A DNA stretch of 64,000 bases from Mariprofundus aestuarium (GTDB lineage: Bacteria; Pseudomonadota; Zetaproteobacteria; Mariprofundales; Mariprofundaceae): the NCBI RefSeq assembly GCF_002795805.1, contig NZ_CP018799.1, forward strand, positions 1,295,001-1,359,000, given 5' to 3'. The position numbers were made by a program, and so were the translations under genes. Within the stretch, counting starts at the first letter, position 1. Each line of letters opens with the position of its first letter. This document shows positions 6,978-37,731 of this stretch, one piece after another. The notes under the pieces were generated by a model that worked only from the letters and a program-made list of their open reading frames with translations, searched no databases and had not been told where the DNA came from.

Positions 6978-7313
6978 ATGACCCGCAAGCAAACGATTCA
7001 GTTGGAAGAACGCCATCGATGTCCGGTAGAGATGACAATTAGTGTGATTGGTGGGCGATGGAAGTGTCCGATCATTCACCATCTAATTGATGGAACCAAA
7101 CGCTTTAATGAGTTGCGAAAACTGATTCCAGAGGCTTCTCAGCGTATGCTTACGAAACACCTGCGCGAACTTGAAAGTGATGGAATTATTCACCGCAAGG
7201 TTTTTGCCGAGGTTCCGCCACGAACGGAATATTCATTAACTGACAAAGGACGCTCTCTCGAATCTGTCTTGTGGGTCATGAATGATTGGGCAGAGAAGAA
7301 CTTGAATTCCTAA
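6978..7313 (+). CDS. HxlR-family transcriptional regulator
   Basis: A 111-residue winged-helix protein with the family signature HRCPVEMTISVIGGRWK, then LRKLIPEASQRMLTKHLRELESDGII (recognition helix) and the wing PPRTEYSLTDKGRSL. One N-terminal Cys at residue 15 lies where thiol-sensing members of the family (for example YodB and HypR of Bacillus) carry their reactive Cys. It is divergent from the pirin/FMN-reductase/membrane-protein operon. It probably controls that operon and its own expression in response to electrophile or quinone stress (inference). Confidence 0.9.
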   Translation: MTRKQTIQLEERHRCPVEMTISVIGGRWKCPIIHHLIDGTKRFNELRKLIPEASQRMLTKHLRELESDGIIHRKVFAEVPPRTEYSLTDKGRSLESVLWVMNDWAEKNLNS

Positions 7314-7423: not shown

Positions 7424-7663
7424 GAACGTCCGATTTTGGCCCAAGCTGTGTGAAAACACGAAATATTTCAGCTGGCCGAGAATTCACCCCCAAAATCATG
7501 TGCTGTTGCATCAACTTCTAGGCAGCAAAACCCACTTTTCCAAATTATTTCGGGAGTATCAGAGGTCATTTGCCACTTTCAAAAATAATCTTTAGTTTTC
7601 ACACAGCCTGGGCCGTAAGTCGCCTGTCGTGATCGGCAGAAGTAGGCCAACTCCGGTAATTCG
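7424..7663 (+). repeat. 67-bp palindrome family, copy C, split by an insertion
   Basis: Bases 7424-7441 (GAACGTCCGATTTTGGCC) form the left end and 7611-7663 the rest, through GTCGCCTGTCGTGATCGGCAG to GGTAATTCG. The GGCC at the junction is present on both sides of a 169-bp insertion (7442-7610). Removing the insertion and one GGCC gives 67 bp, the same length as the complete copies at 31281 and 37665. Confidence 0.9.
7442..7610. mobile_element. MITE-like 169-bp insertion in repeat copy C
   Basis: The ends are CAAGCTGTGTGAAAAC (7442-7457) and GTTTTCACACAGCCTG (7595-7610), inverted repeats matching at 15 of 16 positions. The element is flanked by a 4-bp direct duplication, GGCC (7438-7441 and 7611-7614). 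It carries no gene. It looks like a non-autonomous derivative of an insertion sequence whose transposase must be elsewhere. It accounts for much of the gene-free stretch 7314-7901, whose remaining parts (7314-7423, 7664-7901) show nothing I can name. Confidence 0.85.
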
Positions 7664-7901
7664 AATTGGCACTGCATCTACTGTTTCAAATGTGAGGCAA
7701 TGCATCTGACCCTTCGGTTACATTTTTCAATAAGGCAACGCAAAGGCTCATGCTCTGTCTCTTTTGCGTTTGCCTTTGGCCCTGTCGATAACCACCATGA
7801 AGGTTGCATCGCCCATTCCTAGGGCGGATATTCACGCCAGCAAATAGCACACAGGCTCAGTTGCTCTTGTCATACTGAACAATTGTTTTTTGGAGGGTAT
7901 T

Positions 7902-8336
7902 TTGAAGCTGTTCTTGGATATTGATGGGGTACTTATTGGCAAACACAATAGCCGACCTGTTGTCGCAAGAGGCGTCACCCCTTTCCTTGAATTTGTTACA
8001 GCGAATTTCGACTGCTACTGGCTAACTACACACTGTCAGGGGAATGTTGAAACTGTAATAAGATACCTAACCCCATTTTTCTCAGCAGATCAGCTTGACC
8101 TGATTGGCAAGATAAAACCCACGTCATTTAAAACGTTGAAGACAGAAGCGCTGCCAAACGAGAAAGACTTTATTTGGATAGAGGATCAATTGCTTTGGTG
8201 CGAAAGGAAGTTCATTGAGGATACAGGCCTGACTGATAACTGGTATTTTGTGAATACCGACAAGGACGAGGATGGCTTGATTAATTTGCTGTCAGTACTT
8301 AAGAATGTGCGGAAACCAAGGGCTGCCAAGCCATGA
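7902..8336 (+). CDS. HAD-like phosphatase domain protein
   Basis: A 144-residue protein starting KLFLDIDGVLIG, the D-x-D-G-V motif I of the HAD superfamily. A Thr-containing LTTHCQG follows as motif II, a Lys-rich KIKPTSFKT may serve as motif III, and IWIEDQ is a weakened acidic motif IV. There is no cap domain. The start is the TTG at 7902, preceded at five bases by GGAGG; another TTG at 7890 overlaps that site. Its stop overlaps the start of the PP2C gene (ATGA), so the two phosphatase-like proteins are translationally coupled. Substrate unknown. Confidence 0.7.
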   Translation: MKLFLDIDGVLIGKHNSRPVVARGVTPFLEFVTANFDCYWLTTHCQGNVETVIRYLTPFFSADQLDLIGKIKPTSFKTLKTEALPNEKDFIWIEDQLLWCERKFIEDTGLTDNWYFVNTDKDEDGLINLLSVLKNVRKPRAAKP

Positions 8337-31280: not shown

Positions 31281-31347
31281 GAATGACCGAGTTTGGCCGA
31301 CTTCTGCCGATCACGACAGGCGACTCACGGCCAAAAGCATCCGTTCG
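31281..31347 (-). repeat. 67-bp palindrome family, complete copy G
   Basis: It runs from GAATGACCGAGTTTGGCCG, through ACTTCTGCCGATCACGACAG, to CGGCCAAAAGCATCCGTTCG. The ends are imperfect inverted repeats around an asymmetric centre shared with copies A, C, E and L. It lies in the gap 31099-31428, which also holds a hairpin with T run (31370-31399) and a promoter. Confidence 0.9.
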
Positions 31348-33555: not shown

Positions 33556-33610
33556 GAATGTCCGCTTGTGGCCGGTAAGTGACCGTTGTCAGCGGCCACT
33601 TCCGTGACCA
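33556..33610 (+). repeat. Palindrome copy I
   Basis: GAATGTCCGCTTGTGGCCGG followed by a variant centre (GTGACCGTTGTCAGCGGCC). It ends one base before the stop codon of the recombinase gene. Confidence 0.8.
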
Positions 33611-33611
33611 A

Positions 33612-34250
33612 TCAAGCTTCGGTTTGCTCTGACATCTCTAAAGCATCATCAACTTCGATTCCAAGGTACCTGACCGTGCTTTCTAGCTTGGTATGTCCCA
33701 AAAGGAGTTGAACAGCTCGAAGATTCTTTGTTCTCTTATAAATCAAAGTTGCCTTTGTTCGACGTAATGAGTGTGTTCCATACTCCATAGGGTCTAGGCC
33801 AATCAGTTCAGCCCACGATTTGACTATCCGTGCATATTGACGAGTAGAAAGATGAGGAGACTGACGTATTCTACTTGGAAATAGATAATGACCCGAAAAA
33901 AGATGAGCTTTGTTAATCCAGGCCGCTACAGCATCTCTAGTTTGCTCGGTTAATTCAAATCTAACTGGCTGGCCGGTCTTTTGTTGAGTGACTGTAGCTC
34001 TCGACATAACCCGCCCATTATGAGCGATGTCGTGAATCTGAAGCTTAACAAGGTCACATCCCCGAAGTTTGCTGTCGATTGCAAGGTCGAACAGAGCAAG
34101 ATCTCTTGTTTGTTCTTGCAACTGGAGTCGGATTCTAATTGCCCATATCTCTTTCAGCTTGAAAGGAGGCTTCGGGCCAACTAATCGACTTATTCTTGCG
34201 AAAGTCTGCTGAGGGGTTGTTAGCTGTGTGCTATTAGCATTGTCATTCAT
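33612..34250 (-). CDS. Stand-alone tyrosine recombinase (integrase catalytic domain only)
   Basis: A 212-residue protein consisting almost only of the catalytic domain. Conserved residues: Arg I in DSKLRGCDLVKL, Lys in QQKTGQPV, H-x-x-R in GTHSLRRTKAT, His in LLLGHTKLES and the nucleophile Tyr in TVRYLG. The usual N-terminal core-binding domain is reduced to about 50 residues. AGGAGG nine bases upstream of ATG 34250 fixes the start; a longer frame reaching 34334 would read through repeat J. I recall near-identical solo recombinases in many proteobacteria, but have not checked. It is flanked by palindrome copies I and J, its likely sites. Confidence 0.9.
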   Translation of the reverse strand: MNDNANSTQLTTPQQTFARISRLVGPKPPFKLKEIWAIRIRLQLQEQTRDLALFDLAIDSKLRGCDLVKLQIHDIAHNGRVMSRATVTQQKTGQPVRFELTEQTRDAVAAWINKAHLFSGHYLFPSRIRQSPHLSTRQYARIVKSWAELIGLDPMEYGTHSLRRTKATLIYKRTKNLRAVQLLLGHTKLESTVRYLGIEVDDALEMSEQTEA

Positions 34251-34285
34251 ATTATGTTTCCTCCTTGTTGGTGTGGAAACATAAT
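34251..34285. promoter_or_regulatory. Perfect 11-bp inverted repeat in the recombinase leader
   Basis: ATTATGTTTCC (34251-34261) and GGAAACATAAT (34275-34285) are perfect inverted repeats around 13 bases. They abut the recombinase start codon, and the arm next to it overlaps the end of the AGGAGG ribosome site. This could hide the ribosome site in a hairpin or serve as a protein-binding operator. Confidence 0.6.
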
Positions 34286-34303
34286 TATGGCTCATGGAGA
34301 TTT

Positions 34304-34332
34304 GGTCGTTATCCGGCCAGAAGCGGACATTC
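34304..34332 (-). repeat. Palindrome copy J (short form)
   Basis: GGTCGTTATCCGGCC then AGAAGCGGACATTC. The last 12 bases are the exact inverse of the left arm at 33556. It lies upstream of the recombinase start. Confidence 0.75.
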
Positions 34333-34396
34333 ATTTATGGTGCACGTACCAGTTTTCAGCTATGCTGACTTCACTTGGTAAAGTGGAGATAAAACC

Positions 34397-37664: not shown

Positions 37665-37731
37665 GAATGTCCGCTTTTGGCCGTGAGTCGCCTGTCGTGA
37701 TCGGCAGCAGTCGGCCGTCCTACGACATTCG
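37665..37731 (+). repeat. 67-bp palindrome family, complete copy L
   Basis: GAATGTCCGCTTTTGGCCG, then TGAGTCGCCTGTCGTGATCG, then CGGCCGTCCTACGACATTCG. It is 67 bp, as is reconstituted copy C. It closes the accessory block; core genes follow. Confidence 0.92.

Follow-up and report, generated by a model that had tools for sequence, protein, structure and literature searches.

A transposase-less element with IS1182-type ends in a GGCC palindrome of Mariprofundus aestuarium, and the 24-bp target dyad of its relatives

One copy of a palindromic repeat in the genome of Mariprofundus aestuarium is interrupted by 169 bp that carry inverted ends and have GGCC on either side. The copy lies in the 64,000-nucleotide stretch that we analyzed (contig NZ_CP018799.1, positions 1,295,001 to 1,359,000; hereafter the window), and it raises the question of what the insert is and how it came to split a palindrome. 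We consider it very probable that an IS1182-family insertion sequence (IS) gave rise to the insert as a non-autonomous MITE, which was placed by dyad-targeting transposition at GGCC and is now stranded.

The insert and its further copies

The interrupted unit sits between two genes (6978-7313 and 7890-8336), which we take, from reading their proteins, to encode an HxlR-type regulator and a small HAD-like protein, respectively. The original prediction described a 169-bp insert with inverted ends and GGCC on both sides, and the sequence and an inverted-repeat search agree with it to the base: the detected repeat is 20 nt long and 95% complementary, with arms at 7438-7457 and 7595-7614 that comprise the ends and both GGCC (Table 1). 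The 16-bp inverted ends differ by one mismatch and read CAAGCTG on the left and CAGGCTG on the right. Short, non-coding and bounded by terminal inverted repeats, the insert has the structure of a MITE.

Table 1. Features of the window that bear on the interrupted palindrome (positions count from the first nucleotide of the window).
Feature	Position	Strand	Remark
Left arm of the interrupted 67-bp palindromic unit	7424-7441	+	left GGCC at its end
GGCC, left copy	7438-7441	.	4-bp target duplication; duplication seen directly at the integron site
MITE, 169 bp	7442-7610	+	ends of IS1182 type; without its own open reading frame
Terminal inverted repeat, left	7442-7457	+	CAAGCTGTGTGAAAAC
Terminal inverted repeat, right	7595-7610	-	GTTTTCACACAGCCTG
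GGCC, right copy	7611-7614	.	4-bp target duplication
Right part of the palindromic unit	7611-7663	+	inner stem GTCGCCTGTCGTGATCGGCAG, second GGCC (7645-7648), outer arm
Reference palindromic unit, 67 bp	31281-31347	-	uninterrupted
Half-palindromes bounding the recombinase gene	33556-33574; 34314-34332	+; -	AATGTCCGCTTnTGGCC, inverted
Small tyrosine recombinase gene	33612-34334	-	240 aa, PF00589
Reference palindromic unit, 67 bp	37665-37731	+	uninterrupted

Removal of the insert together with one GGCC leaves 67 bp at 7424-7663. The restored unit had been said to equal an uninterrupted copy, which holds for its length; its sequence is similar rather than identical (90% identity over 52 bp). It had also been said to prove that the palindrome is an older unit of defined length. 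The restored unit does match uninterrupted copies in the same genome and in congeners, although "proves" is slightly strong, and the defined length applies to the long form only: some copies are truncated, and a short form of about 30 bp (AATGACTGCTTTCGGCC/ACAAGCGGACACT) hosts a second copy of the MITE.

This second copy, at 734770-734937 of the single 2.54-Mb contig that makes up the genome, is 93% identical to the window insert, has the same ends and lies at the GGCC of a short-form AATGACTGCTTTC-GGCC...ACAAGCGGACACT palindrome. The whole 2.54-Mb genome contains the exact 13-mer GCTGTGTGAAAAC of the inner end just four times, at the four ends of the two MITE copies. Since the insert recurs at this identity with the same ends, and the 13-mer is limited to them, the window insert is not a chance arrangement.

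Relatives of the MITE in other Mariprofundus species, with up to several copies per genome, measure 167-171 bp, apart from one deleted form of 97 bp. They are homologous along the element, most of them with z 4-12 when compared with shuffled interiors. The majority lie at such palindromes between two GGCC; in a few, the 4-mer is degraded or altered at one end or at both. The proposal that the insert is MITE-like and independently mobile is thus borne out by two copies with different flanks, by homologues across Mariprofundus and by ends of IS1182 type. We also observed a 170-bp MITE in the gammaproteobacterial metagenome-assembled genome CSMAG_266 that is 68% similar to the Mariprofundus MITE over its whole length (z 6.9 against shuffled interiors), a likeness which suggests that such MITEs may have been transferred between bacterial classes.

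IS1182-type ends and a shared target dyad

A scan of bacterial genomes located the pattern GGCCCAGGCTGTGTGAAAA in at least 119 stretches, from Pseudomonas, Bradyrhizobium, Nitrosomonas, Nitrospirales, Salinisphaera, Mariprofundus and other taxa; many of these are one end of an element of about 1.6-1.7 kb with one long gene. Full-length elements with these ends encode a transposase of 475-490 aa, and the one protein tested matched NF033551 (transpos_IS1182) at 462 bits (cut-off 270). Relatives on plasmids are annotated as ISPa7, ISPmo1 and ISPa22. Full-length IS1182 elements with matching ends are present in Mariprofundus, other Proteobacteria and Nitrospirota, and the match of the MITE ends to this pattern assigns the MITE to the family. 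Because the full-length partners carry IS1182 transposases, a REP-targeting IS of family IS3 or IS110 can be ruled out.

The original prediction proposed a search for full-length ISs with the same ends in the same genome. None is present there: neither protein nor profile searches returned an IS1182 transposase in this genome, which is 99.99% complete, so its two MITEs are orphaned. An autonomous partner in the same genome is usual for a MITE but not required. Full-length ISs with near-identical ends (CAGAGTGTGTGAAAAC, CAGACTGTGTAAAAAC) do occur in congeners, where intact IS1182 elements lie at the GGCC of palindromes from the same family of repeats; in congener G008, one such element occupies a 67-bp unit at its right GGCC, and the inner stem is intact. 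We found no autonomous element with the exact CAAGC/CAGGC ends in Mariprofundus, the full-length ends of congeners being mostly CAGAGTGTGTG or CAGACTGTGT, and outside its ends the MITE has nothing in common with the full-length ISs that were compared.

We compiled the flanks of 88 elements for which both ends were available. The 176 half-sites yield the consensus GWCYGCTTYTGGCC, that is, a 24-bp dyad centred on GGCC, with strong positions outside GGCC at G-14, C-12, G-10, C-9 and T-8 and conservation that drops beyond -19. The search of genome contigs required GGCC at one end, which biases GGCC there and leaves positions -5 to -14 unbiased. When sites were scored on five positions per side with GGCC excluded, 83% of insertions reached at least 7 of 10, compared with 1.6% of 5,497 GGCC sites elsewhere in that DNA. 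Since the flanks match a sequence-defined dyad, the splitting of the palindrome reflects target choice and not luck. This was overlooked in the original prediction: judging from these flanks, the split is not accidental, and the element group targets such palindromes specifically. The dyad is present twice in each 67-bp unit, at the left and the right GGCC, of which the left one would have been used at the window locus.

The flanking 4-mers are identical at both ends in 61 of the 88 elements. In a further 19 they are one middle transition apart, in most cases as a GGTC/GGCC pair. Simple duplication of the target is by itself no explanation for such mismatched pairs; later mutation, carry-over of donor flanks and selection for GGCC beside the ends are possible sources.

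We envisage that an IS1182 transposase would act in trans on the 16-bp ends of the MITE, recognise the dyad-symmetric target (consensus GWCYGCTTYTGGCCRRAAGCRGWC) and join the element to cuts staggered about the GGCC at the centre of the target; this GGCC would then be duplicated. The two MITE copies probably moved with a since-lost element or in an ancestor, and at the window locus the palindrome would have preceded the insert.

An empty and occupied site in class 1 integrons

The mode of insertion can be read at a site in the 5' segment of class 1 integrons. Three different IS1182 elements (of ISPa7 type, of ISPmo1 type and a third) are inserted there at the same base in three plasmids, flanked by GGCC/GGCC in two cases and by GGCC/GACC in one. 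The empty site, with a single GGCC (GGGCTGCTGCCGGCCATCAGCGGACGC), is found in at least 5,000 plasmid records, and relative to it two of the three elements have added exactly one GGCC with nothing lost. Insertion here is therefore accompanied by a 4-bp duplication. The integron DNA is unrelated to the palindromes yet carries the same 24-bp dyad, which accounts for this insertion hotspot. In Pseudomonas plasmids, the GGCC hit by the three elements lies upstream of intI1.

The earlier view that the two GGCC are a target duplication is supported by this comparison, rather than at the window locus itself. A search of 22 congener genomes for an uninterrupted counterpart found no empty orthologue, the flanking genes not being conserved at the DNA level; only other copies of the repeat were matched.

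An alternative that we consider unlikely is stem-loop replacement in the manner of IS1272 of Staphylococcus, in which a pre-existing inverted repeat would have been replaced without duplication, leaving the two GGCC as the two sides of a lost hairpin. IS1272 is a member of the same transposase family and also goes for inverted repeats, and its transposition is reported to remove the target, produce no duplication and involve no shared target sequence (PMC5678879). The non-identical 4-mers at the ends of about 30% of elements would follow naturally from such a process. However, one GGCC in the empty integron site and two in the occupied one, with no loss, argue against replacement, the window copy retains its inner stem, and the target of the present elements is defined by a sequence consensus, whereas those of IS1272 have no sequence in common. 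An IS1272-type identity, with loss of the target repeat and no duplication, does not fit a group whose integron target is intact with GGCC doubled.

It is still less likely, indeed very improbable, that the palindrome arms belong to the mobile element as extended inverted ends, so that nothing was split. The arms are found at nearly every insertion, as a composite element of this kind would predict, but near-identical interiors carry unlike arms: in congener G019, the interiors of four copies are 95-98% identical and their 20-bp flanks only 30-70% identical, so the flanks are target and not element. Insert-free palindromes are, moreover, common in the same genomes as inserted ones, and the integron target is unrelated DNA with the same dyad; an empty allele lacking the palindrome would support a composite element, and none was seen. 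That the insert is immobile, as a chance inverted repeat, a structured RNA or a terminator gene, can be dismissed almost entirely, since homologous copies that share its ends are dispersed over unrelated places, and although its RNA fold is stable (z -3.5), the inverted ends dominate that fold and an Rfam search of the insert region gave no match near threshold. The insert probably has no role in the regulation of host genes.

Related elements and the biology of the palindromes

A MITE inserted by target duplication thus remains our preferred reading, and it can be compared with several known systems. The ISPa7, ISPmo1 and ISPa22-type ISs of the IS1182 family resemble the window MITE in their inverted ends and in insertion at the GGCC of a palindromic site; they differ in being about 1.6-1.7 kb long with a transposase of 475-490 aa, where the window element has 169 bp and no transposase gene. 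The relevant earlier case that emerged from a literature search on IS1182 MITEs is that of Methanosarcina acetivorans, whose IS1182-derived MITEs of 160 and 169 bp are partners of ISMac2 and resemble the window MITE in size and in the inferred family of the partner, and the 160-bp element shares a 4-bp duplication as well; they are archaeal, and the available part of that account reports no palindromic target (PMC3852290). Palindromic targets for some IS1182 members are stated without detail (as cited in PMC5678879). Other ISs are likewise specialised on intergenic palindromes, namely the REP-targeting IS1397, ISKpn1, ISPsy8, ISPa11, ISPpu9 and ISPpu10, which represent families IS3, IS110, IS4, IS256 and IS5 and use different palindromes; IS1182 is not mentioned among them in that source (PMC1525189). 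The IS1182-family MITE as a kind is therefore known already, and what stands out here is the precise and unusually clear target shared across many bacteria.

The palindromes themselves are not integron attC sites, as the 67-bp unit at 37665-37731 contains no AAC or GTT (R-box core), and a search of the literature covered, with the palindrome or end sequences as strings, returned no paper. Exact matches to the palindrome arm are clustered in the M. aestuarium genome (734-737, 1297-1333, 1769, 1833-1835 and 2356-2368 kb), as expected if the palindromes travel with acquired genes.

Within the window, inverted half-palindromes bound the gene of a small tyrosine recombinase. A second copy of this gene (679712-680398, at 679.7 kb) shares with the first a unit of about 737 bp at 91% identity; towards the right, the homology stops in a palindrome, and towards the left at a palindromic half-site or close to one, and the DNA outside is unrelated. 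Homologues of the recombinase are encoded in 36 of 299 Proteobacteria genomes (E <= 1e-50) and in 344 plasmid records. With a half-site profile trained only on IS1182 insertion flanks, we scanned the surroundings of 37 such recombinase genes drawn from widely differing Proteobacteria. A half-site lies within 120 bp downstream of 19 and upstream of 17 of these genes, where about two each would be expected by chance; the profile is short, and the expectation comes from first-order Markov shuffles.

IS1111-attC elements are specialised parasites of integron attC sites. By a similar logic, it is conceivable, and we raise it only tentatively from sequence comparisons, that a widespread tyrosine recombinase of about 200-240 aa operates a cassette-like system in which the GGCC palindromes serve as sites of recombination or as boundaries, with IS1182 elements and their MITEs as specialised parasites of such sites. 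Association with a mobile recombinase gene is no demonstration that the recombinase acts on the palindromes.

In conclusion, a single split palindrome has led to a rule: a large set of IS1182 elements and their MITEs share one 24-bp dyad as target, in hosts that range from Zetaproteobacteria to Pseudomonas, Bradyrhizobium and Nitrospirota. The rule extends to clinical class 1 integrons, in which a fixed site has received three different elements at the same base, and the clean comparison of empty and occupied sites argues for target duplication by these members of the family, unlike IS1272. It also opens a route to the biology of the palindromes, since genes for a widespread small tyrosine recombinase are bordered by this half-site too.
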